A DNA stretch of 64,000 nucleotides from Streptomyces pristinaespiralis (GTDB taxonomy: Bacteria > Actinomycetota > Actinomycetes > Streptomycetales > Streptomycetaceae): the NCBI RefSeq assembly GCF_001278075.1, contig NZ_CP011340.1, positions 6,693,501-6,757,500 on the forward strand, written 5' to 3'. The stretch's first letter is position 1. Each line of letters begins with the position of its first letter. Under the pieces are notes generated by a model. The model was given only the letters and a program-made list of their open reading frames with translations, was not told the origin of the DNA and did not search any database. The translations under genes and the position numbers were made by a program. This document shows, piece by piece, positions 29,651 through 51,875 of the stretch.

Positions 29651-29847
29651 CCCTTTGTCATGCGGCGCCCGGCGGGGCCGGCGACGGGTGGCGGTGCGGC
29701 GGAAGTGATCCGTCCGTCCCGCGGTCTTGTGCGTCCGGTCCCCGGGAGCCACTATCTCTGGCAGTGCATGTCAGGAACACGCCATCCTGGCCGGCGCCTC
29801 ACGGGCCCGCCACCGCGGGCTCTTCCCCTCTTCCCAGGAGGAGCACA

Positions 29848-30696
29848 GTGAGGATCAAGCGCACCAGAGCACTGCTCGCCGCAGGCGCGGCCCTGGCGGT
29901 CACCGCCGCCGTCGCGCCGTCCACCGCCCAGGCGACCCCCTCGCCCGGCCCCGCCCAACTCGCCCGCGCGGACGCCGCCGTCCTCGCGGCCGGGGTGGAA
30001 GGCACCGCATGGTACGTCGACCGGACGCTCGGCAGGGTCGTCGTCACCGCGGACTCCACCGTCTCCGACGCCGAGATCACCGGGATCCGCTCGGCCGCCG
30101 GCGCGGACGCCGGCGCGATCACGGTCAAGCGCGCCCCCGGGGTGTTCAAGCCGCTCCTCGGCGCGGGTGACGCCATCTACGGCAGCGGGTACCGCTGCTC
30201 GCTCGGCTTCAACGTGCGCAGCGGCAGCACGTACTACTTCCTCACCGCCGGCCACTGCGGTGACGTGGCGCCGACGTGGTACGCCAATTCCGCCCAGTCC
30301 ACGCTCATCGGACCGACCGTCGGGTCCAGCTTCCCGAGCAACGACTACGCCCTCGTCCGCTACGACAACGCCTCGCTCAGCCACACCGGCGGCTTCACCG
30401 CCGCCGACGCCTACGTCGGCGAGTCCGTCAAGCGCTCCGGCTCCACCACCGGTACCCACAGCGGCACCGTGACCGCCCTGAACGTGACCGTCCACTACTC
30501 CGGTGGCGGCACCGTCCGCGGCATGATCCAGACGAATGTCTGCGCCGAGCCGGGCGACTCCGGCGGCGCGCTCTACGACGGCACCAAGGCCCTCGGCCTC
30601 ACCTCGGGCGGCAGCGGCAACTGCAGCACCGGCGGCACGACGTTCTACCAGCCGGTGACGGAGGCCCTCGCCAAGTACAAGGTCAGCCTCTACTGA
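29848..30696 (+). CDS. Secreted serine protease, streptogrisin (S1E) family
   Basis: A 282-residue preproprotease: signal peptide to about residue 29, a short propeptide, and a mature chymotrypsin-like domain starting near residue 104. Catalytic residues are H136 (TAGHC), D166 (NDYALV) and S238 (PGDSGGAL). The cysteines in RCSLGF/GHCGD and [16 protein letters not shown] form the two standard disulfides. AGGAGGAGC precedes GTG 29848. The next gene is a close paralogue with a similar leader. Its mature region is nearer to streptogrisin B than A, but with a less conserved middle ([18 protein letters not shown]). Confidence 0.92.
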
Positions 30697-30871: not shown

Positions 30872-31774
30872 GTGAGGATCAAGCGCACCATCCCCCGCAC
30901 CCGTACCACCGCCAGACGCACCAGGCTGCTCGCCGTGGCCACCGGCCTGACAGCCGCCGCGGCCCTGGCCGTCCCCACCGCCAGCGCCGAAGAGACACAG
31001 ACCTTCAGCACCCATCAGCTCACCGCGGCGAGCGACGCCGTGCTCCAGGCGGACGTCCCCGGCACCGCCTGGCACGTCGACCAGGCCACCGGCACGCTCG
31101 TCGTCACGGCCGACAGCACCGTCTCCAGGGCCGAGATCGCGAAGATCAAGCGCGAGGCCGGGACCAACGCCGGCGCACTGCGCATCGAACGCACCCCCGG
31201 CACCTTCTCCAAGCTGATCTCCGGCGGCGACGCGATCTACGCGTCGAGCTGGCGCTGCTCACTGGGCTTCAACGTCCGCAGCGGCAGCACCTACTACTTC
31301 CTCACCGCCGGTCACTGCACCGACGGCGCGGGCACCTGGTACACCAACTCCTCGCGCACCACGAGCATCGGTCCGACGACCGGTTCGAGCTTCCCGGGCA
31401 ACGACTACGGCATCGTCCGCTACTCGAACACCTCGCTGTCCCACCCCGGCACCGTCGGCGGCACGGACATCACCAGCGCGGCCAACGCCACCGTGGGCAT
31501 GTCCGTCACCCGCCGCGGCTCCACCACGGGCACCCACAGCGGCACCGTGACGGGCCTCAACGCCACGGTCAACTACGGCGGCGGCGACATCGTCTACGGC
31601 ATGATCCGCACCAACGTGTGCGCGGAACCGGGTGACAGCGGCGGCCCGCTCTACTCCGGCAGCCGGGCGATCGGTCTGACCTCGGGCGGCAGCGGCAACT
31701 GCAGCACCGGCGGCACGACGTTCTTCCAGCCGGTCACCGAGGCACTGAGCCGTTACGGAGTCAGCGTCTACTGA
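30872..31774 (+). CDS. sprB: Streptogrisin B-type secreted serine protease
   Basis: A 300-residue preproprotease. The mature part, starting near [20 protein letters not shown], is very like S. griseus protease B (SGPB), including [20 protein letters not shown] and the C-terminal end GVSVY. The triad is H148, D178 and S256. The precursor has a signal peptide and a ~75-residue propeptide acting as folding chaperone. GGAGG precedes GTG 30872. In S. griseus, sprA/sprB belong to the A-factor/AdpA regulon; I did not find a clear AdpA site here. Confidence 0.93.
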
Positions 31775-31909: not shown

Positions 31910-32389
31910 GTGAAACGCATCGGAGTGACGGGCCACCGCGGCATCCCGGCCGAGGCACGTGCGCACATCCGCGCCGGGCTGCGGGCCGTGCTCCGCGGCC
32001 ATCAGGGCTCGATGGAGGCACTGTCGAGCCTCGCGGTGGGCGCCGACCAGCTCTTCGCGGACATCGCCCTGGACTGCGGCGCGGAACTGACCGCCGTCAT
32101 CCCCAGCGGCGACTACGAACAGGGCTTCACGGACCCGGAGGAACTGGCCCAGTACCGCCGGCTCAAGGCTCTTGCCACCCGCGAGGTCAGGCTGGCCTTC
32201 CCGTACTCGACCGACGAGGCCTACTACGCGGCCGGCGCCTACATCGCCGACCACTGCGACCGGCTCCTCGCGGTCTGGGACGGGCTGCCCGCCCGCGGGC
32301 ACGGCGGTACCGGCGACATCGTGCGGTACGCCCGTGACCTCGGCAAACCCGTGACCGTCATCTGGTGCGAGGGCCTCAAGAGGGACTGA
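31910..32389 (+). CDS. SLOG-fold nucleotide-binding protein
   Basis: A 159-residue protein with a Rossmann-like SLOG pattern: VTGHRGIP at the N-terminus, LAVGADQLFADIAL near residue 47, and the diagnostic AVWDGLPARGHGGTGDIVRY near residue 130, where Gly/Thr residues bind a nucleotide ligand. SLOG domains act as sensors or producers of nucleotide signals in bacterial conflict systems and are linked to SLATT membrane effectors. A SLATT-type gene lies 20 bp away, convergent. GTG 31910 is chosen with GGGGG ~9 bp upstream; the longer frame would run through the preceding terminator. Confidence 0.78.
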   Translation: MKRIGVTGHRGIPAEARAHIRAGLRAVLRGHQGSMEALSSLAVGADQLFADIALDCGAELTAVIPSGDYEQGFTDPEELAQYRRLKALATREVRLAFPYSTDEAYYAAGAYIADHCDRLLAVWDGLPARGHGGTGDIVRYARDLGKPVTVIWCEGLKRD

Positions 32390-32408: not shown

Positions 32409-33347
32409 TCAACTGCGGTGTCTGACCAGCCAGTCCGTGTGCTGGGGGGAGACGATGCGCTCGGTCTCGTAGACCGCCGAGGGCCACTGGGCGTCCGTGA
32501 CCGTGGTCTCCATGGCCGTGTGCATGGCCGCCAGGTCCTCCTCCACGAGCGAGTGGGCCGCGATGAGGGGCTGATGGCGGCGGATCTCGCTCCAGGCCAG
32601 ACACGCGGCGGCGGCCGCGGACAGCACGCCCGGGGCGTGGAAGGAATCCGCCACGGAGAAGGTGCGCAGTGTGGCGAAGAACAGTGCGAAGAGGGTGAGC
32701 ATGGCGATCGACGCGGACCAGAGCGCGGTGGCGCGGCGGGACATCTCCGTACGCCGGTGGTACCAGTTGCGCTGCTCGATCAGCCGGTCCCTGACGTAGG
32801 TCTCCTTGCGGACGCTGAAGGGCTTGGCCCGCAGGCGGCGCATCGGGGTGGTGATCAGGTCGCCCGCCGCGGTCTCCCCGTCCGCCGTACGGGGGTCCTC
32901 CCAGCCGACCTTGACCAACTCCCGTAACCCTTCCTCCAGACGGGTGGAGAACAGATCATCGGCGCCGCGCTCGGAGACGTGCGAGTCGAAGGGCGCTCCG
33001 TGCACGGCGTACCGCCAGCACATCGACTTGATGAACTCGGCCGCGGAGCGGTTCAGTTGCCAATGCGACTTTGCTCGACGCCTCGTGGAGAGGTACCCGA
33101 GCACCAGTACCCCCACGTACGCCAACACGCTGAAGAACGCCGCCACTTGGAACGATCCGCCCACCTTCAGGGAGGTGGGGAGCGAGGCCAGAGCGGCACC
33201 GGCCACCAGCAGGAGCAGCTGGTACCGGGTGGCCGCGACGGCCTCCCGCTGGCGGGCGACGGCTATGGCGTCCGTGCGGTGGTAGAGAACCGGTAGATCG
33301 CCGTTGCGGAAAACCATGCTGTGCAAAGGGCTGGAAAGCTCGCTCAT
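32409..33347 (-). CDS. SLATT-type (DUF4231-like) membrane protein with two 2-TM modules
   Basis: A 312-residue protein with two membrane hairpins: residues ~42-60 and 66-86, and ~207-225 and 238-254. They are separated by a soluble section with LEEGLRELVKVGWEDPRTAD. The layout and the RQREAVAATRYQ/RRTEMSRRATALW helices before each hairpin match SLATT/DUF4231 families, proposed pore-forming effectors paired with SLOG or SMODS proteins. ATG 33347 is chosen because GGGGG lies 6 bp upstream; an in-frame GTG at 33377 is possible. Leu141 is a TTA codon, implying need for the bldA tRNA. Its promoter region is shared with divergent fxsA. Confidence 0.75.
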   Translation of the reverse strand: MSELSSPLHSMVFRNGDLPVLYHRTDAIAVARQREAVAATRYQLLLLVAGAALASLPTSLKVGGSFQVAAFFSVLAYVGVLVLGYLSTRRRAKSHWQLNRSAAEFIKSMCWRYAVHGAPFDSHVSERGADDLFSTRLEEGLRELVKVGWEDPRTADGETAAGDLITTPMRRLRAKPFSVRKETYVRDRLIEQRNWYHRRTEMSRRATALWSASIAMLTLFALFFATLRTFSVADSFHAPGVLSAAAAACLAWSEIRRHQPLIAAHSLVEEDLAAMHTAMETTVTDAQWPSAVYETERIVSPQHTDWLVRHRS

Positions 33348-33456
33348 ACACACCCCCGTCTGCGGTTTTGTGTTCACTCATTAGGCGGAATCGCTTGTTC
33401 CTTGCGGGCCTGCGAGAATGTGGTGCAACTCTTTCGTTGCTTATCCCCGTGCTGAG

Positions 33457-33484
33457 TTGCTGAGAGTGGCCATGAGAGTAAAGT
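33457..33484 (+). promoter_or_regulatory. Possible fxsA promoter
   Basis: TTGCTG (33457-33462) and TAAAGT (33479-33484) are spaced by 16 bp, about 80 bp before fxsA. This 190-bp divergent spacer is noticeably less GC-rich than its neighbours. GCAAC-N6-GTTGC at 33425-33440 is a small inverted repeat that might bind a regulator. Confidence 0.35.
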
Positions 33485-33566
33485 CGTGCCGCCGGCATCG
33501 CAACGGTGCGTGGTATCCCCGCAGACACAGCCTTGAGCTGGACACAACATCAAGGACGGCCCCCCA

Positions 33567-33731
33567 ATGACCCTTCACTCCTCCGCATCCTTCGCCGCTG
33601 CGAAGAAGAATCGCGTTCCACTGGCACAGATCGACGTCCGCGGCGCCGATGCCGCGCAGAAGCTCGCCCGCGTCCTTCCCGCTTCCGAAGCACGCGGTCT
33701 GCGCGCCACCACGTTCAACTCGTCGCTCTGA
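33567..33731 (+). CDS. fxsA: FxSxx-COOH RiPP precursor peptide
   Basis: A 54-residue peptide, not reported among longer reading frames, starting MTLHSSASFAAAKKNRVPLA and ending RATTFNSSL. The last five residues, F50-N-S52-S-L54, fit the F-x-S-x-x-COOH signature that defines this precursor family. The middle (PLAQIDVRGADAAQKLARVLP) is the conserved leader. AAGGA lies 10 bp before the ATG. FxsB-family radical SAM enzymes are known to install a three-residue cyclophane on such motifs, here expected between Phe50 and Ser52. The stop lies 41 bp before fxsB, with a hairpin between. Confidence 0.9.
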   Translation: MTLHSSASFAAAKKNRVPLAQIDVRGADAAQKLARVLPASEARGLRATTFNSSL

Positions 33732-33743
33732 AGCGGCTCCTCA

Positions 33744-33766
33744 GGGCCGCGGACCGGCCCTAGACT
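33744..33766 (+). promoter_or_regulatory. Hairpin and -10-like element between fxsA and fxsB
   Basis: GGGCCG-CGGAC-CGGCCC (33744-33760) forms a 6-bp hairpin followed at once by TAGACT (33761-33766), a typical Streptomyces -10 hexamer, only 6 bp before the fxsB ATG, which lacks a good ribosome-binding site. It could attenuate read-through from fxsA and start a leaderless fxsB transcript. No -35 is seen. Confidence 0.45.
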
Positions 33767-33772
33767 GGTGGA

Positions 33773-35962
33773 ATGACAGGACCCCCTTTGGTCCCCTTCC
33801 AGCAGATCGTCGTGAAGGTCCACAGCAGGTGCGATCTTGCCTGCGACCATTGCTACATCTATGAACACGCTGATCAGAGCTGGCGTACCCGCCCGAAGGC
33901 AATCTCTGACGAAGCGATTTCCTGGACAGCTCTGCGACTGGCCGAGCATGCCAAGAGCCATGCCCTGCCCTCCGTGTCAGTGATCCTGCACGGAGGGGAG
34001 CCTCTGCTGGCAGGCCCCGAGCGTCTGCGCCGCGTCTGCGAGGAGTTCACCGCAGCACTTGAACCGGTCGCCGCACTCGACTTGAGGATCCACACCAACG
34101 GAATTCGGCTGAACGACCGTTTTCTCGACCTGTTCGACGAATTCGACGTCCGGGTCGGCATCTCCCTCGACGGGGACCGCAGCGCCAACGACCGCCACCG
34201 CCGTTACGCGGACGGCCGCACCAGCCACCCGCTCGTCCTGCGGGCCGTGGACCTCCTTCGCCAGGAGCGCTACCGCCACCTCTACCTGGGCCTGCTGTGC
34301 ACCATCGACGTCGCCAACGACCCGGTCGCCGTGTACGACGCCCTCGCCGAGCTCGAACCGCCCCGCATCGACTTCCTGCTGCCCCACGCCACCTGGGACG
34401 ACCCGCCGGCCAGGCCGGACGGATCACCCACCGCATACGCCGAGTGGATCCTCGAGATCTTCGACCGCTGGGACGCCCGCGGCAGGCCCGTGCCGGTGCG
34501 GCTCTTCGACTCGGTGTTCTCCACCCTGGCTGGCGGCCCCAGCCTCACCGAATCCCTCGGCCTCGCCCCCTCCGACCTCGTCGTCGTCGAGACCGACGGC
34601 ACCCTGGAACAGGTCGACTCCCTGAAGAGCGCCTACGAGGGCGCGGCCGCCACCGGGTTCGACGTCTTCCGGCACCGCTTCGACGACGTCGCCTCCCACC
34701 CGGGCGTCCGGGCACGCCAACTCGGCCTGGCCGGCGTGAGCCGGACGTGCCGTCAGTGCCCGGTCGTCCGCTCCTGCGGCGGCGGCCTCTACACGCACCG
34801 CTACGCCACCGGCTCGGGCTTCGACAACACCTCCGTGTACTGCAACGACCTCAAGGCGCTCGTCCGCGGCATCGAGGAGCGCACCGCGCCGTCCTCCGCC
34901 TCCCCGGCCGTCAGCGACCCGGAGGCACTGCAGATCCTCCAGCAGGACCTGACCCGCTACACCCTCGCCCGGCTCAACGAGGAGCTCGGCGGCCGCGGCG
35001 GCGAGCGGTGGTCGGCCGCCTGGGAGCTCGCGTCGGCGATCGAGGAGACATCGCTCGGACTCGACGAGATCTACGCCCACCCCTACACCCGCACCTGGCT
35101 CCACACCTGCCTCGACGCCCTGCGCGAGCAGCGCCCCGACGCGGTCGAACTCGCCCTGCGCCTGGAGGCCTACGTGGCCGCCGCGGCCGTACGGAGCCGG
35201 CTCGGCGTCCCCGTACGGGTGGGCTGCCCCACCGGCACGCTCGTCCTGCCCACCCTCGGCGAGCTCCGGCTGACCGACGACGGCGGGCCGTGCGAGGCCG
35301 AGGTCGGCGGCGGGCCCGACGAGGTGCTCGTGACCGTGCCGGGGGGCGCGACCTTACGCGTACGCCCCGGCGAGGCCGGGCCCGGCTGGCGGACCCCGCG
35401 GCGGCCCGGACTCCAAGGCTGGCCGGGGCTCGTGCTGGAGGACGTCGACCCGTTCCGGGACTGCTTCGACGAAACGGTGGGTGCCGCGGGGGACACGGAA
35501 GCGCTCTCCCGGGCATGGGCACTGTTGCGGGACGCCGCGCCGGAGCAGGCGGCCGAGATCGCGTCCTCCCTCACCACCCTGACACCGCTGCGGAGCGGCG
35601 GTCCCTCGGTCGGACGACACGCCTACGGCGCGCTGGGCATCAGCCTCGACGGAAGTCCCGAAGAACTGGCGGCCGCACTGCTGCGGGGCTTCTCCCGGGC
35701 CAAACTGCGCGCGATCGGGGAAGTGGCCGACCTCCTGGCCGAGGACGGCGCCTGGCTGCACCCCGCCCCCTGGCAGGACGAGCCGCTGCCCGCCTCGCGG
35801 TTGCTGGCCGGTGCGTACGAACGCGTCATGCTCGCGCCCCTCGACCCGGCAGCCGCCGCCCACGCCGTCCTCGCCCTCAAGGCCCTGCGCGACGCACCGG
35901 AACCGACCGTCAGCGGCAAGCGCCTCATCGCCGCCCTGCACACGGAGGCAGCCCGTGACTGA
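33773..35962 (+). CDS. fxsB: FxsB radical SAM/SPASM maturase with degenerate beta-hydroxylase-like extension
   Basis: A 729-residue protein. The radical SAM cluster motif is C20-x3-C24-x2-C27 (CDLACDHCYIY). ILHGGEP follows near residue 66. The SPASM region holds C326, C329, C335 and C357 for auxiliary clusters. It should form the cyclophane on FxsA. From about residue 370 a second domain resembles alpha-ketoglutarate HExxH-type peptide beta-hydroxylases, but where that family has HEFQHxKL this protein has R638-GFSRAKL645, so both metal histidines are lost; it matches the described FxsBH form with an inactivated extension. Leu528 is a TTA codon. The stop overlaps the next gene by 8 bp. Confidence 0.92.
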   Translation: MTGPPLVPFQQIVVKVHSRCDLACDHCYIYEHADQSWRTRPKAISDEAISWTALRLAEHAKSHALPSVSVILHGGEPLLAGPERLRRVCEEFTAALEPVAALDLRIHTNGIRLNDRFLDLFDEFDVRVGISLDGDRSANDRHRRYADGRTSHPLVLRAVDLLRQERYRHLYLGLLCTIDVANDPVAVYDALAELEPPRIDFLLPHATWDDPPARPDGSPTAYAEWILEIFDRWDARGRPVPVRLFDSVFSTLAGGPSLTESLGLAPSDLVVVETDGTLEQVDSLKSAYEGAAATGFDVFRHRFDDVASHPGVRARQLGLAGVSRTCRQCPVVRSCGGGLYTHRYATGSGFDNTSVYCNDLKALVRGIEERTAPSSASPAVSDPEALQILQQDLTRYTLARLNEELGGRGGERWSAAWELASAIEETSLGLDEIYAHPYTRTWLHTCLDALREQRPDAVELALRLEAYVAAAAVRSRLGVPVRVGCPTGTLVLPTLGELRLTDDGGPCEAEVGGGPDEVLVTVPGGATLRVRPGEAGPGWRTPRRPGLQGWPGLVLEDVDPFRDCFDETVGAAGDTEALSRAWALLRDAAPEQAAEIASSLTTLTPLRSGGPSVGRHAYGALGISLDGSPEELAAALLRGFSRAKLRAIGEVADLLAEDGAWLHPAPWQDEPLPASRLLAGAYERVMLAPLDPAAAAHAVLALKALRDAPEPTVSGKRLIAALHTEAARD

Positions 35963-36728
35963 CCGGTCAGGCGACCGCGAACCGTTACCGGCGCTGCGCG
36001 CCCTCGGCGTGCGCCCCGGCATGACCCTCCTCGTCCACGCCTCCCTGCACGCCACCGGGCTCGGCGCCCGCCGGCTGCGGGACGCGCTGCTCGAGGCCCT
36101 CGGTCCCGAGGGGACCCTCGTGGTCCCGGCGTTCACGGCGGAGAACTCGGACACCTCGTCCGCGTATCTCGCCCGGGTGCGCGGCATGACACCCGAGCAG
36201 GCGGCAGCCTTCCGGGCGGACATGCCGGCCTTCGACCCGGCGACCACACCCGCTCAGGGAATGGGCCGGCTGGCCGAATCCGTACGGACCGCCCCCGGCG
36301 CGGTGCGCAGCGCCCACCCGCAGACGTCGTTCGCGGCGCTCGGCCGGCGGGCCGCGGAACTCCTCGCCGAGCACCCGCTGGACTGCCATCTCGGAGAGCG
36401 CTCACCGCTCGGCGCCCTCCACCGCGCCGGAGCGCACGTACTGATGATCAATGTGGGCTTCGCCAAATGCACCGCGTTCCATCTCGCCGAGTACCACGTC
36501 GGATCGCCGCTGCGCACCTACCGTTGTGTGGTGCGGCGGCCGGACGGCGGCGCCGGATGGACCGAGTACACCGATGTGGTGCTGGACGACAGTGATTTCG
36601 AGGCGATCGGTGCCGCCTTCTCATGGGGAGTGGAACGAAGCGGACAACTCGGCGGAAGAACCGCAAGGCTGTTCTCTCTCAGGGACGCGGTCGACCACGC
36701 GAGGGGTTGGATGACCGAAAAGCGGTGA
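35955..36728 (+). CDS. AAC(3)-family N-acetyltransferase in the fxs operon
   Basis: A 257-residue aminoglycoside 3-N-acetyltransferase (antibiotic_NAT fold). Seen: LRALGVRPGMTLLVHASLHA (acetyl-CoA side), VVPAFTAENSDTS, SAHPQTSFAALG and the catalytic-region block NVGFAKCTAFHLAEYHVGS. GGAGG lies 6 bp before GTG 35955, which overlaps fxsB. Leu11 is a TTA codon. True AAC(3) enzymes acetylate 2-deoxystreptamine aminoglycosides; here the operon position suggests a possible role on the Fxs product or in self-protection. Which applies cannot be read from sequence. Confidence 0.87.
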   Translation: MTDRSGDREPLPALRALGVRPGMTLLVHASLHATGLGARRLRDALLEALGPEGTLVVPAFTAENSDTSSAYLARVRGMTPEQAAAFRADMPAFDPATTPAQGMGRLAESVRTAPGAVRSAHPQTSFAALGRRAAELLAEHPLDCHLGERSPLGALHRAGAHVLMINVGFAKCTAFHLAEYHVGSPLRTYRCVVRRPDGGAGWTEYTDVVLDDSDFEAIGAAFSWGVERSGQLGGRTARLFSLRDAVDHARGWMTEKR

Positions 36729-36843
36729 TGATTGACCGAACGGCAAGGGGATGGAGCGTGACTCGCTCCGGAATGATTACGTCGCTCGCGTCCTTCATCG
36801 AAGGCGGGTGTCGGGCCGGGTGTTCACGCAGGACGGGGGTCGT

Positions 36844-38178
36844 GTGTCGGATTCAGCGCAGCGGGCGGCGGACCATCGGCCGTACTTCTTCTTGAGCTAC
36901 GCGCACACACCGCGGTACGGGGCCGGCGGCCCCGACCCCGACATGTGGGTCGAGCGGCTTTTCCGCGACCTGTGCGGCCATGTGATGGCCATGACCGATC
37001 TGCCGGCCGGCGCACCCGCCGGCTTCATGGACCGGGAGATACGTTCGGGGGAGGGCTGGTCGGAGCGGCTGGGCGAAGTGCTGGCCAGCTGCCGGGTGTT
37101 CGTCCCGCTCTTCTCCCCCCGCTACTTCGCCAGCGAGATGTGCGGCAAGGAGTGGTACGCCTTCGCCCAGCGGGCCATCTACCACCACGCGAAGAGCAAC
37201 CGCCCGGCGGAGGCGATCGTCCCGGCGTTATGGGTGCCGATGCCGCCCGAGCAACTGCCCGGCCCCGCCGAGCGACTGCAGTTCAACCACCGCGCCTTCG
37301 GCGACCGGTACGTGACCGACGGCCTCTACGGCCTGATCAAGCTCCGGATATTCGCGGAGGAGTACGAGGCGGCCGTCTACGAACTGGCGAAACGGATCGT
37401 CAGCGTCGCCGACACCATACGGCTCGCCCCCGGCAGCCCCGTCGAATTCCGTCAGGCGCCCAGCGCGTTCGGCAGACCCAGCGTCGGCCCGCGGCCCATG
37501 CACGTCACCGTCGCCGCCCCCACGAGCCACGACCTGCCGCCCGGCCGCTCGGCCGACTACTACGGCAAGCAGTCGCAGGACTGGAACCCGTACCACCCCG
37601 ACTCCGCCCGCCCGTTGGCGTACGTCGCACAGGATCTGGTGCGCTCCCTCAACTACCAGCCGACCGTCTCCTCCTTCGACCACGAGCCGCTGCCCGCGGC
37701 GGGCCAGCCGCCGACCCGGCCCGAGATCCTGCTCATCGACCGCTGGGCCCTCGAGAACGAGGAACGGCGGCGCAAACTCGCCGCCTTCGACGCGCATCCG
37801 CACCCGTGGGTCAGCGTCGTCGTCCCCTGGAACCGCGACGACCCGGACAGCCGCGGCGCGGAGGCCGAACTGATCGAGAAACTGGAGCGCACCATGCCGC
37901 ACCAGATGAGCCACGGCCGCGCGGCCTGCCAGGCGGCGGCCAAGGGCGTCTACAGCATGGAGGCCTTCGGGCACCTGCTGCCACAGGTCGCGGAGGCGGC
38001 CGCCCAGGAGTACCTGCGCCACGCGGAGGTCTTCCCGCCGGCCCCGCCGGGCGGCGGCAGTCACAGCGAACGGCCCCGGCTGCGCGGCCCGATGGCCGGG
38101 TACAGCACCACCCACTACGTCCCGAACATGCGTGACATCGCCCCTGATGCGGAGGACACGGATGACAGCCAGTCGTGA
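36844..38178 (+). CDS. fxsC: FxsC, TIR-like protein of the FxSxx-COOH system
   Basis: A 444-residue protein. The N-terminal TIR-like domain opens with PYFFLSYAHTPRYGAGGPDP and includes MDREIRSGEGWSERLGEVLA and RVFVPLFSPRYFASEMCGKE, the FxsC-family pattern. A second alpha/beta part after residue ~240 has ILLIDRWALENEERRRKLAA and WVSVVVPWNRDDPD. Whether it cleaves NAD like other TIR enzymes is unknown. GTG 36844 follows AGGACGGGGG; about 115 bp separate it from the acetyltransferase. Leu129 is a TTA codon. Its end overlaps fxsT by 17 bp. Confidence 0.88.
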   Translation: MSDSAQRAADHRPYFFLSYAHTPRYGAGGPDPDMWVERLFRDLCGHVMAMTDLPAGAPAGFMDREIRSGEGWSERLGEVLASCRVFVPLFSPRYFASEMCGKEWYAFAQRAIYHHAKSNRPAEAIVPALWVPMPPEQLPGPAERLQFNHRAFGDRYVTDGLYGLIKLRIFAEEYEAAVYELAKRIVSVADTIRLAPGSPVEFRQAPSAFGRPSVGPRPMHVTVAAPTSHDLPPGRSADYYGKQSQDWNPYHPDSARPLAYVAQDLVRSLNYQPTVSSFDHEPLPAAGQPPTRPEILLIDRWALENEERRRKLAAFDAHPHPWVSVVVPWNRDDPDSRGAEAELIEKLERTMPHQMSHGRAACQAAAKGVYSMEAFGHLLPQVAEAAAQEYLRHAEVFPPAPPGGGSHSERPRLRGPMAGYSTTHYVPNMRDIAPDAEDTDDSQS

Positions 38179-41100
38179 CGGGCGCATCGTCACCTTCTAC
38201 TCGTACAAGGGAGGTACCGGACGCACGATGGCCATGGCCAACGTGGCCTGGATCCTCGCCGCGAACGGTAAGCGGGTGCTGGCCGTCGACTGGGACCTGG
38301 AAGCACCCGGCCTGCACCGCTTCTTCCACCCGTTCCTGGACCCCTCCACACTCGGTGCCACCACCGGCGTCATCGACCTGATCACCGAGTACGCCTGGGC
38401 CGCGACCAACCCCGAGCCGCGCCGCGTCGACTGGCACCTGGACTACGCGCGCATCCAGCCGCACGCCGTCTCCCTCACCCCCGAGAGCCTCGGCTGGGAG
38501 TTCCCCGAGGGCGGCACGCTCGACTTCGTCTCCGCGGGCAAGCAGAACCGCGAGTACTCCGCGACCGTGTCGACCTTCGACTGGGACAACTTCTACGACC
38601 GGCTCGGCGGCGGGCACTTCTTCGACGCGCTGCGCGACGACATGAAGGCCAACTACGACTACGTCCTCATCGACAGCCGCACCGGCCTCAGCGACATCGC
38701 CGACATCTGCACCGTCCACCTGCCCGACGTCCTCGTCGACTGCTTCACGCTCAGCGACCAGTCCATCGACGGCGCCGCCGCGGTCGCCCGGCAGATCGAC
38801 GAGCGGTACGGCGGCCGGGGCATCCGGATCTTCCCCGTCCCCATGCGCATCGACGAGGGGGAGAAGGAGAAGGCGGACGCCGGACGTGCCCTCGCGCGCC
38901 TCAAGTTCGACCGCTTCCCCACCGGCCTGACCGGCGAGGAGGCGACCGCCTACTGGGGCGCGGTGGAGATCCCCTACCGGCCCTACTACGCCTACGAGGA
39001 GACGCTCGCGACCTTCGGCGACGAGTCCGGGCTCACCAGCTCGCTGCTCTCCGCCTTCGAACGCCTCACCGCCGTCGTCACCGACCAGCAGGTCACCGCG
39101 ATGCCGCCGGTCAACGAGGACGTCCGGCTGCGCATCAGGGACGCCTTCACCCGCCGCCGCCCCGCACTGCCCGCCGACCTGTTCCTCAGCTACGTCGCAG
39201 AGAACCGCATGTGGGCCGACTGGGTCGAGTACGTGCTCAGCAGAGCCGGCTTCCGGGTCGTGCCGCGCGACGTGTCGGCGGAACACGATCCCGTGGAGGT
39301 CGACGCGGCCGCCGCGGAGAACGCCGCACGCACGGTCGTGCTGCTGTCCAGCGCCTACCTCAAGTCGGCCCGGGCCGTGGAGGTCTTCCAGCGCGCGGCC
39401 GCGGAGGACCCGAGCGGCGGCCGACGGCACCTGCTCCCGATCCGGGTCGGCGACGTCCGTCTCACCACCCCCTACATCGACCGCAATCCGGTCGACCTGT
39501 TCCGGCTCGACGAGGTGCACGCGACCGGCGCCCTGCTGCGGGCGCTCGACCGTCCCGTGCAGCTTCCCGATCCGTCGTCGCCCGGACCGAGGTTCCCCGG
39601 AACGGTGCCCAAGATCTGGAACGCGCCGCCCCGCAACCCCGGCTTCACCGGCCGCTCCGTCGTCCTGGAGCGGATGCGTGACCAGCTCGGCGGCGGCATG
39701 GCGGTGGCCGCGGTCCTGCCGCAGCCCCAGACGCTCTACGGCCTCGGCGGCGTCGGCAAGACCCAGGTGGCCCTCGAGTACGTGCACCGGTTCATGGCCG
39801 ACTACGACCTGGTCTGGTGGATCTCCTCCGAACAGCCCGACGACGTCGTCGCCGGCCTCGCGGAACTCGCCGTCCGGCTCGGCGCGCAGGGCGGGGAGGA
39901 CATGGCCGCAGCTTCCCAGGAGGCCATCGACCTGCTGCGGCGCGGAGTGCCGTCGTCACGGTGGCTGCTGGTCTTCGACAACGCCGACGACCCCGAGCAG
40001 CTCAAGCGCTTCTTCCCCGCCGGCGGCCCCGGGCACGTCCTCGTCACCTCCAGGAACCAGACCTGGTCGCAGTACGGCGACGCGCTGCCCGTCGACGTCT
40101 TCCTGCGCGAGGAGTCCATCGAGCACATACAGCGGCGTGCCCGCGGGCTGAGTGCCGAGGACGCCGACCAGGTCGCCACGGCCGTGGGCGACCTGCCCCT
40201 CGCCGTCGAGCAGGCCGCGGCCTGGATAGCGGAGACCGCCACACCGGTCGCCTCCTACCTGGAGCAGCTGCGCGAGCAGGCCGCCAGCGTGCTGGCGCTC
40301 AACCAGCCCGCCGGATACCCGGAGCCGGTCGCCGCGACCTGGAACGTGTCCATCGAGCGGCTGAAAGAGCGCTCTCCCGCGGCCGTCCGCCTCCTGCAGC
40401 TCTGCGCCTTCTTCGCACCCGAGCCGATCTCCGCGAACCTCCTCTACAGCAAGGAGATGATCGACGCCCTCAAGCCGTACGACGCCTCCCTCCAGGAGAA
40501 GCTGGTGCTGGGCCGGGTCATCCGGGAGATCGGCCGGTTCGCCCTCGCCAAGGTCGACCAGGTCTCCAACTCGATCCAGGTGCACCGGCTGGTGCAGGCC
40601 GTCATCAGGGCGCAGCTGAGCGAGGAGGAGCAGATGGACGCGCGCCACGCCGTCCACCGCATCCTCGCGGGCGCCAGGCCCGACGACGACGAACCGATCG
40701 ACAACCCGGAGACCTGGCCGCGGTTCAACACCATCTGGCCGCACCTCGGCCCGTCGGAGGCCAGGTACTGCAAGGAGCCGGAGACCCGCAGGCTGCTGAT
40801 CGACCGGGTGCGCTACCTGTGGAAGCGCGGCGACTGGAAGACCGCCCACGCCCTCGCGAGCGATCTGCGCGAGGCGTGGAAGGAGATGCTCGGCAACGAC
40901 GACCTCCAGTACCTGTACCTGCGCTTCCACCTCTCCAACATCCTGCGTTCCCAGGGCCGTTACGTGGAGGCCAAGGACCTCGACGAGGTGACGCTCGAGC
41001 GGCAGCGCGTGGTACTCGGCGCCTCCCATCCGCACACGTACATGACCACCAGCGGTCTGGCGATGGACCTCGGCACGCTCGGCGAGTACGGCAGGGCGAT

Positions 41101-42103
41101 GGAGCTGGCGACCGAGGCGCACGAAGGGTTCAGCCAGATCTTCCACGAGTCCCACCCGCGCACGCTCGCCGCCGCCAACAACCTGGCGCTGAACCTGCGG
41201 ATGGTGGGGCAGTACGCGCGGGCCCGCGAGATCGACCAGGAGGTCTTCGACCGGCGCACGGAGGTGCTCGGCCCGGAGCACCCGTACACGCTCTCCTCGG
41301 CGATGAACCTCGCCCGCGACCTCAGGGAGGTCGGGCGGTACGAGGACTCCGTGTCCGTGCTCAGCCGCACCTACGAGGTCTACAAGGAGCAGCTCGGGCG
41401 GGCGTTCCCCGGCACGCTGGCCGCGGGCAAGAGCCTCGCGGTGTCGCTGCGCAGGGCGGGCCGGCTGGAGGACGCGCGGCGGCTGACGACGGCGACCCGC
41501 AACCGCTACCGCGCCAAGTACACCTCGGCCAACCCCGACTCGCTGGCCTGCGACCTCAACCTGGCGGCGGACCTGTTCGCCGCCGGCGAGCCCGTCGCCG
41601 CCCGGGACCTCGCCCAGGAGGTCGTCGACCAGTACCGGCAGGTCCCCGGTGAGCGGCACCCGTACACCCTGGCCGCGATCAACAACCTCGGGATCTACGA
41701 GTGGGGCTGCGGCACTCCGGAGATCGCGGAACGGCTGCTGCGGGACGTGGTCGCGGCGATGCGGGAGGTGCTGGGGGAGGACCATCCGCACGCCCTCTAC
41801 AGCACGATCAACCTCGCCAACGCCCTCGCGGACCTGGGCCTCTGCGAGGATGCGCTGGCGATCGAGCGGCGGACCGTGGACCGGCTGCGCGAGGTGCTCG
41901 GAGCGCACCACCCGGAGGTGCTCGGCATCGCCTCCAACATGTCGGTCACGCTCGGACTGCTGGGGCGCAAGGACGAGGCGGCCCAGATGCGGACGGAGAC
42001 GGTCGAGGAGCTGCAGCGGCTGCTGGGCGAGGAGCACGCGCTCACCCGCATCGCCAAGGACGAACGCCGCGTCTACCGCGACCTGGAGCCGCTGGCGGTC
42101 TGA
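38162..42103 (+). CDS. fxsT: FxsT: ParA-like/TIR/NB-ARC/TPR protein of the FxSxx-COOH system
   Basis: A 1313-residue multidomain protein. Residues ~8-320 are ParA/MinD-like with the deviant P-loop K16-GGTGRT (Arg21 in place of Lys). Residues ~338-470 are TIR-like (ADLFLSYVAENRMWADWVEY). Residues ~500-780 form an NB-ARC/STAND ATPase with P-loop GLGGVGKT (Lys533) and Walker B WLLVFDNADD near residue 607. Residues ~885-1313 are TPR repeats of about 42 residues (LGPEHPYTLSSAMNLARDLR, LGEDHPHALYSTINLANALA). GGAGG precedes ATG 38162. This is the architecture of immune STAND sensors; here it is the last gene of the fxs operon. Confidence 0.9.
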   Translation: MTASRDGRIVTFYSYKGGTGRTMAMANVAWILAANGKRVLAVDWDLEAPGLHRFFHPFLDPSTLGATTGVIDLITEYAWAATNPEPRRVDWHLDYARIQPHAVSLTPESLGWEFPEGGTLDFVSAGKQNREYSATVSTFDWDNFYDRLGGGHFFDALRDDMKANYDYVLIDSRTGLSDIADICTVHLPDVLVDCFTLSDQSIDGAAAVARQIDERYGGRGIRIFPVPMRIDEGEKEKADAGRALARLKFDRFPTGLTGEEATAYWGAVEIPYRPYYAYEETLATFGDESGLTSSLLSAFERLTAVVTDQQVTAMPPVNEDVRLRIRDAFTRRRPALPADLFLSYVAENRMWADWVEYVLSRAGFRVVPRDVSAEHDPVEVDAAAAENAARTVVLLSSAYLKSARAVEVFQRAAAEDPSGGRRHLLPIRVGDVRLTTPYIDRNPVDLFRLDEVHATGALLRALDRPVQLPDPSSPGPRFPGTVPKIWNAPPRNPGFTGRSVVLERMRDQLGGGMAVAAVLPQPQTLYGLGGVGKTQVALEYVHRFMADYDLVWWISSEQPDDVVAGLAELAVRLGAQGGEDMAAASQEAIDLLRRGVPSSRWLLVFDNADDPEQLKRFFPAGGPGHVLVTSRNQTWSQYGDALPVDVFLREESIEHIQRRARGLSAEDADQVATAVGDLPLAVEQAAAWIAETATPVASYLEQLREQAASVLALNQPAGYPEPVAATWNVSIERLKERSPAAVRLLQLCAFFAPEPISANLLYSKEMIDALKPYDASLQEKLVLGRVIREIGRFALAKVDQVSNSIQVHRLVQAVIRAQLSEEEQMDARHAVHRILAGARPDDDEPIDNPETWPRFNTIWPHLGPSEARYCKEPETRRLLIDRVRYLWKRGDWKTAHALASDLREAWKEMLGNDDLQYLYLRFHLSNILRSQGRYVEAKDLDEVTLERQRVVLGASHPHTYMTTSGLAMDLGTLGEYGRAMELATEAHEGFSQIFHESHPRTLAAANNLALNLRMVGQYARAREIDQEVFDRRTEVLGPEHPYTLSSAMNLARDLREVGRYEDSVSVLSRTYEVYKEQLGRAFPGTLAAGKSLAVSLRRAGRLEDARRLTTATRNRYRAKYTSANPDSLACDLNLAADLFAAGEPVAARDLAQEVVDQYRQVPGERHPYTLAAINNLGIYEWGCGTPEIAERLLRDVVAAMREVLGEDHPHALYSTINLANALADLGLCEDALAIERRTVDRLREVLGAHHPEVLGIASNMSVTLGLLGRKDEAAQMRTETVEELQRLLGEEHALTRIAKDERRVYRDLEPLAV

Positions 42104-42204: not shown

Positions 42205-43143
42205 TCAGTCGTCCAGCAGCCAGGTGAGGATGCGCGGCAGCGCGTGCAGGGCGTCGAAGTGAGCGGCGGCCGGTTCCAGGACGGCCGTCGCGCCCGGGAT
42301 GCGTTGGGCGAGCCAGCGTGAGTGGCCCACCGGGGAGAAGACGTCCTTCTCCCCGTGCCACAGCATCACCGGGCTCTTGATGTCCGCCGGGTCGAAGCCC
42401 CACGGGCTGCAGAACGCCAATGCGTCGTCGATCCACCCGTACGCCGAAGTCCGCAGCGCCTCCTGGTAGTTGCGCAGCAGCATGGACCTGACGCCGGCGT
42501 CGGAGACCACCATGCGGTCGGAGTCGGTGAGCTCCCTGCGCAGGTCGTTCAGCAGGCGGACCGGGTCCTTCCTGATTTCGGCGGAGCGCAGTGTGAACCG
42601 CTCCACGAGTCCGGCCGGATCGTCGGAGGCGCTGGTGTACTCGGTGACGTTCGACGCCGCCATGCCCTCGAACCAGTCCAGCCCGTCCGCGTCCCTGGGC
42701 GCGAGGGTCACCAGAGCGGCGGCCCGGGTGACCCGGTCCGGCATCAGGGCCGCGCACGCCAGCGCGTGCGGTGCGCCCCCGGACCGGCCCACGACGGCGA
42801 AGCGCTCCAGGCCGAAGTCGTCGGCGATCGCCCGTACGTCCTGTGCCACATCGGCGACGCTGCGGCCCGCGAGCCGGTCCGAACCGCCGTACCCGGGGCG
42901 GTCATAGGCGATCAGCTGTGTGCCGCGCTGATAGAGCACCATGCCGCGCGGCGCGGGGCCGAGCCTGCTGCCCGGCGTACCGTGCAGCAGGAAGACCGGT
43001 CTGCCGCGCGGATCGCCGAGGCGCTCCACCATCAGATGCCGCCCGTCCGCCGCGCGCACCCGACGTCGCACCCGAACGCCCCCTTCGCCGTACATGCCCC
43101 GTGCGTGCATGCCCCGTGCCGTCCATGCCCGTGCAGACACCAT
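42205..43143 (-). CDS. Alpha/beta hydrolase
   Basis: A 312-residue alpha/beta-hydrolase. Seen: VFLLHGTPGSRLG (oxyanion-hole HG), GGSDRLAGRSVADVAQDVRA, the nucleophile elbow VVGRSGGAPHALA (GRSGG), the acid in HGEKDVFSP and a C-terminal histidine in AAHFDALHALPR. GGAGGGGGAA precedes ATG 43143. The first ~25 residues are basic and not conserved-looking, so a later start is possible. It is convergent with fxsT; nothing ties it functionally to that operon. Confidence 0.88.
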   Translation of the reverse strand: MVSARAWTARGMHARGMYGEGGVRVRRRVRAADGRHLMVERLGDPRGRPVFLLHGTPGSRLGPAPRGMVLYQRGTQLIAYDRPGYGGSDRLAGRSVADVAQDVRAIADDFGLERFAVVGRSGGAPHALACAALMPDRVTRAAALVTLAPRDADGLDWFEGMAASNVTEYTSASDDPAGLVERFTLRSAEIRKDPVRLLNDLRRELTDSDRMVVSDAGVRSMLLRNYQEALRTSAYGWIDDALAFCSPWGFDPADIKSPVMLWHGEKDVFSPVGHSRWLAQRIPGATAVLEPAAAHFDALHALPRILTWLLDD

Positions 43144-43372
43144 GAGCTTCCCCCTCCGAACGGTGATTACCCATCAGGCGGCCGACTGCCGGGGGCATTC
43201 GGGGTCCTGTTCCCGATTCCTGTGAAGAGGCTGTGAACGCACCTGTGTTGTCGTGTGCCCGTCCCGTGGCCGACCTTGTGTGCGACTGCGACGCCTCGGA
43301 ATAGTGGGCGACTCATCCTCCGCGTCCGGGCACCCCACTTGCTCCGGGCGCGGCCCCCACAGGAGGTCGAAG

Positions 43373-44458
43373 TTGAAGCACCGACGCATACCCAAGAGGA
43401 AAGCGGCAATAGCGGGCGGCGCGGTCGTCGCCGTCGTCGCCGCGGGCGTCACCTTCCAGAGTGCGAACGCCAGTGACCACACCGCGCAGTTCGACGTGAA
43501 GGCGCTCACGGCGCCGGCGGCCGGGAACCTCGCCGCCACGCTGAGGGCGGACCTGGGTGCCGAGGAGGCCGGCGCGTACTACGACGCCAAGGCCAAGGCG
43601 CTCATCGTGAACGTGCTGAACGAGGACGCGGCGCAGACGGTGCGCGAGGCGGGCGGCAAGGCGAGGATCGTCGAGAACACCCTCGTCGAGCTGAAGAGCG
43701 CCCGGCAGACCCTCACGGACAAGGCGACCATCCCGGGCACCTCGTGGGCGACCGACCCGGTGACCAACAAGGTCGTCGTCACCGCCGACCGCACGGTCGA
43801 GGGCGCCGACTGGGCCAAGCTGCAGAAGGTCGTCGAGGGCCTCGGCGCCAAGGCGGAGCTCAAGAAGACCGCGGGCGAGTTCCGGCCCTTCATCGCGGGC
43901 GGCGACGCCATCCACTCGGGCGGCGGCCGCTGCTCGCTCGGCTTCAACGTGGTCAAGGACGGTGAGCCGCACTTCATCACCGCCGGACACTGCGGGCAGA
44001 CCGGCAGCGAGTGGTCCGACTCGGCGGGCGGCCCGGCCGTCGGCACGATGGTCGACTCGCAGTTCCCCGGCAACGACTTCGCGCTGGTGAAGTACAGCGG
44101 TGCCACGGAACACCCGAGCGAGGTGAACCTCTACGACGGCGGATCCCAGGCCATCACCCAGGCGGGCGAGGCGACCGTCGGCATGCAGGTGACCCGCAGC
44201 GGCTCCACCACCCAGGTCCACGACGGTGAGGTGACGGGCCTCGACGCCACCGTTAACTACGGCAACGGCGACATCGTCGAGGGCCTCATCCAGACGAACG
44301 TCTGCGCGGAACCGGGCGACAGCGGCGGCTCACTCTTCTCCGGCGACGCGGCGATCGGCCTCACGTCGGGCGGCAGCGGCGACTGCAGCTCGGGCGGCGA
44401 GACGTTCTTCCAGCCGGTGACGGAGGCGCTTTCCGTCCTGGGCGCGGAAATCGGCTGA
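43373..44458 (+). CDS. Streptogrisin-type secreted serine protease with long propeptide
   Basis: A 361-residue preproprotease starting at TTG 43373, supported by AGGAGGT 6 bp upstream. A signal peptide (residues ~1-34) and a ~135-residue propeptide precede the mature domain, which begins near [20 protein letters not shown]. The triad is H206, D235 and S317 (PGDSGGSL). The longer propeptide with the [20 protein letters not shown] block resembles SGPD/alpha-lytic-type precursors, unlike the two short ones at 29.8-31.8 kb. Its conserved STTFNY-like glycine-rich end ([20 protein letters not shown]) matches them. Confidence 0.92.
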
Positions 44459-44845: not shown

Positions 44846-45919
44846 TCAGGCCCGCCTCGCTCCGACCGCCTGCGTCGACTCCTCCGTGCGCTGCCGCCGC
44901 GCCATCGCGCACGCCAGCGTGACCACCGAGCCCGCCACCGCCCACGCGGCGAGCACCAGCATCGGTCCGCCGGCCCCGTTCCCCCTGAAGTACGCGATGG
45001 AGCGCGTCGCGTACGTGCCCGCTCCGGGTGGCAGCGCCGGGCCGATCGCGCGCCAGAACGGCGGCAGGAGCGGATACGGGTAGGCCCCGCCCGCGCTCGG
45101 GTTGCCGAGGACGACCACGAGCAGGATCGCCAGGCCGATGCCCACGATCCCCGCCAGTCCCTGCAGTGCCAGCGTGAGCGCTCCGACCGCGAAGACGAGC
45201 AGGGTGCCGAGGCCCCACAGTGCCCAGATGCTGCCGGGCAGCGCCTCCAGGACCGGACCGGCGATCACCGTGCCGAGCAGCCCCGCGGTGATCGAGTACA
45301 GCAGCAGCGCGCCGAGCCGGATGACGGCGCGGGCCCCGTGCGAGGGGCGGGCGCCCGCGCTGATCGCCAGGATCGCCGCGCACAGATAACCGCCCACGCA
45401 CCAGCCGACCACCAGGTAGAACGAGGAGAGGCCGCGTGCGTCGCCCTTGGCGCCCGGGACGACGTCCACCACCTGGATCCTGCGCTGCTGCGACTGCTCC
45501 GCCTTTCCGACGACCGCGACCAGCGCCTCGGAGAGCGCTCCCCCGCCCCCTCCCGCGACCAGCAGCCGGTCGGTGGTGCCGCGGGGGTCGATGACGAGCG
45601 CCCCGTCGACCTTCCGCTCCAGGATCTGCCGCCGGGCGGCCGCCTCGTCGTCGACGGTGCGCGGCTCCAGGGGGTCGCCCGGCAACCGGGCGAGCCGGTA
45701 GAGGGCCTCGTCGGCGATCTGCGTGTCGGGGGAGGTGATCGCCAGCGGGATCATGTGCGGCTTCGGCTGGTGGAAGGCGCCGATGTACGAGGTGATGAAG
45801 CCGAGCTGGAGCGCCAGCACTCCGATGACCAGGATCGCGGCCCGCACGGTCACCGCGTCCTTGACCTCGTCGAGGAACCCCTTGCGCGGCTCGTCGTCCG
45901 TCTGTGCCGTCTGTGCCAT
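44846..45919 (-). CDS. Multi-pass membrane protein (DUF3533/YhgE-like)
   Basis: A 357-residue protein with one N-terminal membrane segment (residues ~27-47), an extracytoplasmic domain of ~130 residues (DGALVIDPRGTTDRLLVAGG GGG), and five or six C-terminal segments. This resembles the ABC-2/YhgE-Pip/DUF3533 type of membrane protein, with no ATPase gene nearby. It is divergent from a TetR gene across a doubled operator, so it is probably that regulator's target. Substrate unknown; export or cell-envelope stress is a guess. Confidence 0.75.
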   Translation of the reverse strand: MAQTAQTDDEPRKGFLDEVKDAVTVRAAILVIGVLALQLGFITSYIGAFHQPKPHMIPLAITSPDTQIADEALYRLARLPGDPLEPRTVDDEAAARRQILERKVDGALVIDPRGTTDRLLVAGGGGGALSEALVAVVGKAEQSQQRRIQVVDVVPGAKGDARGLSSFYLVVGWCVGGYLCAAILAISAGARPSHGARAVIRLGALLLYSITAGLLGTVIAGPVLEALPGSIWALWGLGTLLVFAVGALTLALQGLAGIVGIGLAILLVVVLGNPSAGGAYPYPLLPPFWRAIGPALPPGAGTYATRSIAYFRGNGAGGPMLVLAAWAVAGSVVTLACAMARRQRTEESTQAVGARRA

Positions 45920-48309: not shown

Positions 48310-48365
48310 AACTGGTCTATGGTTGGAGGTGGGGGAGGTGAGAACGACTGATTCAGGAGGTGCGG

Positions 48366-51300: not shown

Positions 51301-51875
51301 GCGTGCTCGGCATGGACGCCTCCCGCCATCTGATGGCGGACCACCATGCCTTCCTGGCCGAGCTCGGCGTGCTCTCCGCGCAGCGGCTGCGCGATGCCCC
51401 GCACGGACGGACGGTGCTCGTCGCGGGCGCCAAGGCGGCGACCCAGACACCGCCGATCCGCTCCGGCAGGCGGGTCATCTTCACCACGCTCGACGACGGC
51501 AGCGGCCTGGTGGACCTCGCCTTCTTCGACGACAGCCACGCCGCCTGCGCCCACACCGTCTTCCACTCCTGGCTGCTGCTGGTGCGCGGTGTGGTGCAGC
51601 GGCGCGGACCGCGCAGCCTCAGCGTGGTCGGCTCGGCCGCCTGGAACCTGGCGGAGCTGGTGGAACTGCGGCGCACCGGCGGCCTCGACGCGGTCGCCGC
51701 CCGGCTGGCCGCCCCGGCGCCGGAGCCGGACGGCGGGAACGGGTCCGACAACGGCCGCCGGATCCAGCTGCCGACGGGCTACGAGCTCAACCCCTGGGCG
51801 GATCTCAAGCCCGCCGGTGAAGGGGCCGCGGGCGGAAGGAAGTTGTGGCATCAGAGTCCCGGGAGTGCCGGATGA
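48366..51875 (+). CDS. dnaE2: Error-prone DNA polymerase III alpha-type subunit (DnaE2/ImuC)
   Basis: A 1169-residue C-family polymerase. The N-terminal PHP domain (YFTHLHTVSGFSVRYG) lacks one of the usual metal histidines (HTVS instead of HTHS). The catalytic aspartates are in LPDIDIDVESARR (~residue 420) and LLKLDVLGV (~residue 578). An OB-type domain (RVIFTTLDDGSGLVDLAFFD) lies near residue 1040. The absence of a beta-clamp loading context and its pairing with an ImuB-like gene indicate the translesion DnaE2/ImuC role. AGGAGG at 48355 sets ATG 48366 (GTG 48360 is less well spaced). The stop overlaps the next gene (ATGA). A LexA box lies upstream. Confidence 0.9.
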   Translation: MPYFTHLHTVSGFSVRYGASHPERLAGRAAERGMDALALTDRDTLAGAVRFVTACAKEGVRPLFGVDLAVGERARQEGPAERRRTPVRGGAFVDESAPRTVFLARDRRGWADLCRMVTAAHATDPRSPLLPWDDNHGDGLTVLLGPSSEVGGALAAGRPDRAAKLLAPWRERYGDRLRLEVVHHGGGGTGPGSLRHAARTLGLAAEQGVRAVLTNAVRYADPGQGPVADVLDAARRLVPIDPRKGLDSGERWLKDPAAMAVLAGRVAEAAGFRRELAHRLLAMTEETAAECLVDPEDDLGIGSVHFPEPALVGAEYRTAQRVLASRAAAGMVLRGYDGRREYWERMHHELDIIAHHGFASYFLTVAQVVDDVKGMGIRVAARGSGAGSLVNHLLGIAHADPVEHGLLMERFLSKRRRVLPDIDIDVESARRLEVYRKIIGRFGEERVATVAMPETYRVRHAIRDVGAALSMDPAEIDKLAKSFPHIRARDARAALAELPELREVATESKRRERMWELVEALDALPRGVAMHPCGVLLSDASLLTRTPVVPTSGEGFPMSQFDKDDVEELGLLKLDVLGVRMQSAMAHAVAEVRRATGEEVDVDAVPPGDPATYRLIRSTETLGCFQIESPGQRDLVGRLQPETFGDLVVDISLFRPGPVAADMVRPFIEARHGRAPARYPHPDLEGPLRQTYGVVVFHEQIIEILDIMTGCGRDEADRVRRGLSDPESQGKIKTWFARNAGAKGYAPEVIGRAWEIIEAFGSYGFCKAHAVAFAVPTYQSAWLKAHHPAAFYAGLLTHDPGMYPKRLLLADARRRGVPVLPLDVNRSAVAHRIELVSDDVSSRASAGAGGGSRGGSVPAADARSGQGRWGLRLALSDVHGISEAEAARIEAGQPYSSLLDFWQRACPSRPVAERLAQVGALDAFGANRRDLLLHLAELHRTRRGAASYGSQLPLAQGQKTAPVGLPDLGDAERLSAELGVLGMDASRHLMADHHAFLAELGVLSAQRLRDAPHGRTVLVAGAKAATQTPPIRSGRRVIFTTLDDGSGLVDLAFFDDSHAACAHTVFHSWLLLVRGVVQRRGPRSLSVVGSAAWNLAELVELRRTGGLDAVAARLAAPAPEPDGGNGSDNGRRIQLPTGYELNPWADLKPAGEGAAGGRKLWHQSPGSAG

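Follow-up and report, generated by a model that had tools for sequence, protein, structure and literature searches.

The stretch of DNA considered here, hereafter the window, comprises 64,000 nucleotides of Streptomyces pristinaespiralis (contig NZ_CP011340.1, positions 6,693,501 to 6,757,500). Between about 31.9 and 43.1 kb of the window lies a group of genes which we tentatively regard as a Streptomyces SLOG-SLATT variant of a known conflict system, combining an FxSxx-COOH ribosomally synthesized and post-translationally modified peptide (RiPP) with STAND and TIR proteins. This layout is the form most often seen among the sampled Streptomyces.

The fxs genes

The fxs genes occupy the forward strand. 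The first, fxsA (33567..33731), encodes a precursor of 54 residues which ends in FNSSL and exceeds the TIGR04268 cut-off (40.4 bits, cut-off 28). It is followed after a gap of 41 bases by fxsB (33773..35962), whose product is a radical SAM/SPASM maturase with CxxxCxxC at residue 20 (TIGR04269, 598 bits, cut-off 370) and an inactivated HExxH-type C-terminal domain (the 'lost HExxH' family NF040587, 432 bits, cut-off 225). The next gene, here called aac (35955..36728), overlaps fxsB by 8 bases with its GTG at 35955. For fxsC (36844..38178) we use the GTG at 36844, which is the start of the 444-residue database proteins; the frame is open from 36751, and either this ATG or the GTG leaves a gap to aac. 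The last gene of the series, fxsT (38162..42103), overlaps fxsC by 17 bases (ATG 38162) or by 47 bases (GTG 38132). Overlaps had been claimed in the initial annotation for three of the four junctions from fxsB to fxsT, of which two were found (fxsB-aac and fxsC-fxsT). The five genes themselves lie where they had been placed, and their matches to curated families are far above chance. Coupling of a FxSxx-COOH cyclophane-type RiPP locus to TIR/STAND proteins, as claimed there, is supported by the family profiles, and so are the precursor and the maturase.

FxsC consists of an N-terminal TIR and a C-terminal Rossmannoid domain, as indicated by NF040588 (234 bits, cut-off 130), TIGR04276 (218 bits, cut-off 55) and a model compared with the PDB. 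FxsT starts with a ParA-like part (KGGTGRT; P-loop residues and a KGGVGR AAA domain), which also matches the candidate-defence family PDC-M28B of PADLOC (E 1.7e-23). Two PADLOC scans, one of six proteins (E ≤ 0.001) and one of four including SLATT a second time (E ≤ 1), covered nine different proteins. The remainder of FxsT holds TIR_2, NB-ARC, DUF7779 and TPR domains in a Pfam scan of 17 window proteins, and NF040586, which spans the NB-ARC-TPR part and not the ParA or TIR parts, gives 1058 bits (cut-off 300). Profiles and Pfam domains agree with the earlier description of FxsC as TIR-like and of FxsT as a ParA-TIR-NB-ARC-TPR protein. The product of aac, described there as an AAC(3) homologue, belongs to the AAC(3)/FrbF/YokD-fold acyltransferases (PF02522, 248.6 bits, E 7.8e-74; FrbF structure 3sma, E 2.4e-47). 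However, it stays far below the NCBI equivalog cut-off for aminoglycoside 3-N-acetyltransferases (140.6 vs 270 bits), and the gene is optional: among the best 80 of 125 Streptomyces loci from a scan with FxsC, 22 have a match (E ≤ 1e-5; 23 at E ≤ 1e-3, one being a piece of 61 residues).

The precursor is highly conserved in this locus set. FxsA was found in 75 of the 77 loci with an fxsB match, 65 times by similarity and ten times by the F-x-S-x-x pattern upstream of fxsB, and both remaining loci begin at a contig edge. All 75 close FxsA end in F[NS]S[AS]L. So little variation in the core speaks against a polymorphic toxin/immunity system. HExxH is absent from the C-terminal part of all 75 full-length FxsB orthologues. 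We take MscB to be a member of the FxsB family. It joins Phe C4 to Ser C-beta at i, i+2 according to the available text of PMC11002830, and by analogy FxsB is predicted to place a cyclophane between Phe50 and Ser52 of FxsA.

The two TIR domains differ in a residue of the Glu motif that we take to mark catalytic TIRs. FxsC keeps the Glu of SPRYFxSxMCGKEW in 28 of 28 sequences and in 46 of 47 wider rows. At the same position (column 418) the TIR of FxsT has L, V, I, F or A in 78 of 78; in a wider alignment Glu stands in 2 of the 43 rows having a residue there. The FxsC TIR is thus probably the enzyme and the FxsT TIR a scaffold, judging from these residues. Three loci carry two FxsC N-terminal domains in tandem (L159, L162 and G108:C1:2679496-2680666; L denotes a locus, G a genome), and one of the two copies in L162 has Gln in place of the conserved Glu. 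A mobilizable plasmid (NZ_CP108204.1, L168) encodes a protein of ~1,520 residues annotated as FxsC near an AAA ATPase, a recombinase and a Tn3 transposase.

Neighbouring genes and their linkage to fxs

The initial annotation had called the five genes a complete locus. All five are real, but genes for a SLOG protein, a SLATT protein and an alpha/beta hydrolase adjoin them and co-travel. The SLATT gene (32409..33377, reverse strand; alternative ATG 33347) is divergent to fxsA and encodes a membrane effector-type protein of 322 residues with SLATT_3 and SLATT_1 domains (PF18184, E 6.3e-39; PF18181, E 1.2e-36; NCBIfam SLATT_3, 184 bits) and hydrophobic segments at about 54-72, 78-96 and 219-237. 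Tail to tail with it lies a gene on the forward strand (31910..32389, frame open from 31823) for a protein of 159 residues whose predicted structure (YpsA/DprA type) has the fold of the SLOG superfamily (YpsA/DprA/LOG/ThsA). The Pfam family PF10686 (cpYpsA-related SLOG) matched at E 0.17 in one sequence (P0126) and not in three others; PADLOC ShosA is weakly matched (E 0.017), and there was no sequence match in the PDB. From the modelled fold, the protein is a probable nucleotide sensor.

At the other end, tail to tail with fxsT, the alpha/beta hydrolase gene (42205..43143, reverse strand; PF00561, E 2.2e-19) is a candidate component. In a scan of 44 loci, 31 of the 32 whose FxsB scores above 600 bits have a hydrolase of this type (exception L128), as against none of 11 with a weaker, short-type FxsB; L160, which lacks an FxsB match, has no such hydrolase either. 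Five loci chosen for lacking SLATT carry it (L124-L127, L129). GxSxG is present in 75 of 75 copies, and since the HExxH domain of FxsB is degenerate, the hydrolase would be the leading candidate for a processing role.

In most full-length Streptomyces loci the order is protease, SLOG, SLATT, fxsA, fxsB, (aac), fxsC, fxsT and alpha/beta hydrolase. Six loci (L073-L077, L079) have the fxs block inverted relative to the flanks, so that SLATT lies 3' of fxsT on the same strand. SLATT and SLOG matches each occur in 75 of the 80 loci, as pieces only in L074. The five loci without either are four at contig edges (L037, L038, L041, L049) and one vWA-MoxR ternary (VMAP) locus (L078).

A survey covered 199 Streptomyces genomes, with neighbours counted up to 8 kb from FxsC among the matches listed (for FxsB the 86 strongest). 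FxsC exceeds its cut-off in 68 genomes with 93 matches; the other 131 genomes are termed FxsC-negative. Neighbours of the 93 are FxsB, FxsT and SLATT in 51 cases, FxsB and FxsT in 19, FxsB alone in five, FxsB and SLATT in one, FxsT alone in four and none of these in 13. Routine occurrence of fxsC or fxsT without fxsA and fxsB had been named in the initial annotation as speaking against its reading, and here the picture is mixed: for 76 FxsC an FxsB lies within 8 kb, and for 17 there is none. Two FxsB-less FxsC loci were examined, one of the 17 (L111) and L078 from another collection, and in both the FxsC domains are fused to a SAV_2336-type protein as in VMAP systems. L111 lies in the genome of the window (G000:C1:6040000-6054000), separate from the fxs genes, and holds VMAP-M2 and a MoxR-type AAA protein; its SAV_2336-type effector is fused to both FxsC domains. 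NF040586 exceeds its cut-off in 184 of the 199 genomes. Since FxsB stays below its cut-off in 75 genomes, 60 or more of these must have an NF040586 match.

Linked fxsB, fxsC and fxsT are present in 60 of the 199 genomes, and SLATT adjoins them in 51. All 56 close, nearly full-length SLATT (≥ 43% identity) among the matches listed come from FxsC-positive genomes, and in 52 cases FxsB lies no more than 12 kb away. None is in the 131 FxsC-negative genomes; six typed SLATT rows from the latter reach only 29-34% identity. The 44 loci scanned include 19 from other genera (one FxsC locus per genome, 19 of 27 genomes with a match). Of the 19 SLATT-positive loci, 18 had been chosen for SLATT; 17 of the 19 have SLOG, which exceeds 40 bits in none of the 25 SLATT-negative ones. 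L130-L142 and L155, which have none of ten window flank genes in common with the window, keep SLOG-SLATT linked to fxs. Over the few kb of flank compared, eight of these loci can be grouped by common flanks, and six (L130, L134, L135, L139, L142, L155) share none. In L155, from another family, SLOG, SLATT and fxs all lie on one strand.

The site of the window is empty in two genomes: protease and hydrolase matches are ~140 bases apart in G109 and ~1 kb apart in G133, and neither interval matches SLOG, SLATT or fxs. A scar in G005 holds remnants of FxsT and SLOG and no SLATT. Nine loci from other genera (L152, L154, L156, L157, L161, L163-L166) represent a divergent type, in which two FxsT-like genes enclose a short FxsB gene of opposite orientation, and these nine have no hydrolase, SLATT or SLOG match. 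Around the unit in the window there are three alpha-lytic-type serine protease genes (29764-30696, 30872-31774, 43253-44458). Further away, at 48360-52837, a DNA polymerase III alpha-type gene precedes a gene for an ImuB-like Y-family polymerase.

The genes are also marked by TTA codons, which occur in the window in fxsB (codon 528), aac (codon 11), fxsC (codon 129) and SLATT (codon 151); SLOG, fxsA, fxsT and the hydrolase gene have none. Crude window-wide gene calls, in which aac and fxsA are missing, have TTA in SLATT, fxsB and fxsC only. In related loci TTA is present in 40 of 72 usable copies of fxsC (five alignment columns), in 31 of 67 of SLATT (nine columns), in 12 of 77 of fxsT, 9 of 77 of fxsB, 5 of 23 of aac and 0 of 65 of fxsA; two flank genes have it in 1 of 72 and 4 of 76. 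Of 57 loci in which all four genes were usable, 48 have at least one TTA. These codons suggest bldA-dependent expression. In an alignment of 38 divergent regions between SLATT and fxsA, that of the window (33378..33566) included, the centre is a strongly conserved block, and the stretch preceding fxsA is conserved as well. The central block is possibly a shared operator.

A possible signalling route and its rivals

These features can be joined to a model. At the C-terminal end of FxsA, FxsB would link Phe50 with Ser52, and FxsT, with its TPR and NB-ARC domains, would recognise the matured peptide as a ligand. Activated FxsT, whose TIR lacks the catalytic Glu, might then assemble FxsC by TIR-TIR contact, and FxsC with its retained Glu would convert NAD+ to an ADP-ribose-type messenger. 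Binding of the messenger by SLOG would gate the SLATT protein, so that the membrane is perforated and cells or hyphal compartments shut down. Since fxsB, aac, fxsC and SLATT contain rare TTA codons, the response would have to wait for the bldA tRNA. The action of a peptide on FxsT, though putative, is the reading that suggests itself most readily; it is not new. The whole chain from fxs through a messenger and SLOG to SLATT goes beyond gene identity, linkage, predicted SLOG fold and residue conservation, and we hold it as a tentative proposal, the likeliest of those considered here yet short of even odds. Its fullest version, with a self-made cyclophane peptide, an NLR-type receptor, a two-TIR relay, a nucleotide messenger, a separate SLOG, a SLATT pore and developmental gating by TTA, is rather doubtful as a whole.

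Several observations weigh against this model. SLOG-SLATT is retained at the site in G057 and G157 where fxs is gone, SLATT occurs in only one of the 19 loci from other genera, and Streptomyces fxs loci without SLATT exist (L124-L129, chosen for that lack). The bldA inference is weakened in that ATA use is also raised in fxsC and that TTA is associated with acquired genes according to the available text of PMC10327506. The first three points would fit SLOG-SLATT as an independent neighbouring conflict unit, the fxs output being FxsC alone by NAD depletion. We consider this rather unlikely in view of the lack of close SLATT in FxsC-negative genomes, the recurrence of the linkage with several unrelated flanks, the inverted arrangement with a codirectional SLATT directly after fxsT, and the conserved divergent region shared with fxsA. 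Linkage across unrelated flanks, the empty sites set against G057 and G157, and the other genera together indicate that SLOG-SLATT is a lineage-specific output arm and not a universal core.

The role of the peptide could also be the reverse of that in the model. A steadily made cyclophane peptide might keep FxsT off as an antidote, and loss of its synthesis, e.g. by host shut-off during phage infection, would free FxsT-FxsC. The nearly constant core agrees with this, as does the place of fxsA as first gene of the operon, free of TTA where fxsC and SLATT often have it, so that peptide could precede effector. Yet fxsA and fxsB share the operon with the would-be target, fxsB itself has TTA in some loci, and the available text of eLife 2020 e52696 favours a toxin or amplifying signal; we regard such an antidote as unlikely. 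Still less probable, in our view distinctly improbable, is an ordinary RiPP, in which the cell exports the peptide as an antimicrobial or signal and uses the TIR/STAND proteins only for regulation or self-protection. The annotation as a RiPP family, secreted-type proteases nearby that could trim an exported peptide and a flank gene (44846-45919) with a sub-cut-off ABC2_membrane_3 match would suit it. Against it, the profile scans gave no transporter among the genes co-travelling with fxs, though no search was aimed at transporters, no locus from L124 to L142 matches the model of the nearby protease above 40 bits, and L130-L142 and L155 lack the other flanks. Further points are a peptide core that hardly varies between species and the effector role of FxsC in VMAP systems.

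If the proposed chain is true, RiPP biosynthesis and a Thoeris-like messenger circuit would be joined in one genetic unit for programmed shutdown in a filamentous bacterium, and a bacterial NLR would have a peptide-hormone-like ligand together with a second-messenger branch resembling Thoeris. In the literature searched the role of FxSxx cyclophane peptides is not established, while related chemistry is described. With a putative sensor (SLOG) and output (SLATT) linked to fxs and the two TIRs split into a probable enzyme and a probable scaffold, the question can be tested gene by gene.

Comparison with known systems

The fxs family and its cyclophane chemistry had been taken as already described, which is borne out by eLife 2020 e52696 and, for related enzymes, by PMC11002830. 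The former, in its available text, reports standalone actinobacterial FxSxx-type peptide-processing systems whose AP-ATPase carries an additional, inactive MinD/ParA-like domain; a 'peptide toxin or signal' is proposed there. The five-gene core is hence an ordinary member of this system, with which it has in common the actinobacterial host, the FxSxx precursor, the radical SAM-SPASM enzyme and the TIR/AP-ATPase/TPR protein with an inactive MinD/ParA-like domain. It differs in that a zincin-type peptidase belongs to the core there, whereas in the present locus a degenerate HExxH domain forms part of FxsB. SLATT is mentioned three times in the available main text, each time in the GTPase-centric sections 28 and 29 and not in the FxSxx section. 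Relative to that text SLOG, SLATT and the alpha/beta hydrolase are additions here.

In the triceptides, products of radical SAM enzymes that form three-residue cyclophanes, the Phe-Ser link of MscB at i, i+2 (PMC11002830, available text) matches F-x-S here, where such a link is predicted. VMAP systems have the N- and C-domains of FxsC fused to a SAV_2336-type protein, also in this genome (L111), and none of the 17 window proteins scanned with Pfam, one gene twice, is a VMAP, MoxR or vWA protein. TIR-SLATT neighbourhoods and a predicted regulation of SLATT by ADP-ribose derivatives have already been published (PMC9503650, available text). A parallel to the proposed route is Thoeris with ThsB TIR and ThsA SIR2-SLOG or TM-macro proteins, where SLOG effectors of the ThsA type respond to isomers of cyclic ADP-ribose (PMC11204291, available text). 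No PADLOC model for ThsA or ThsB matched among the nine proteins scanned. If our model holds, both systems would combine a TIR enzyme, a nucleotide-binding SLOG and a destructive effector. Unlike in Thoeris, SLOG and effector are separate genes here, the effector is a SLATT protein, and a RiPP and a STAND receptor stand upstream.

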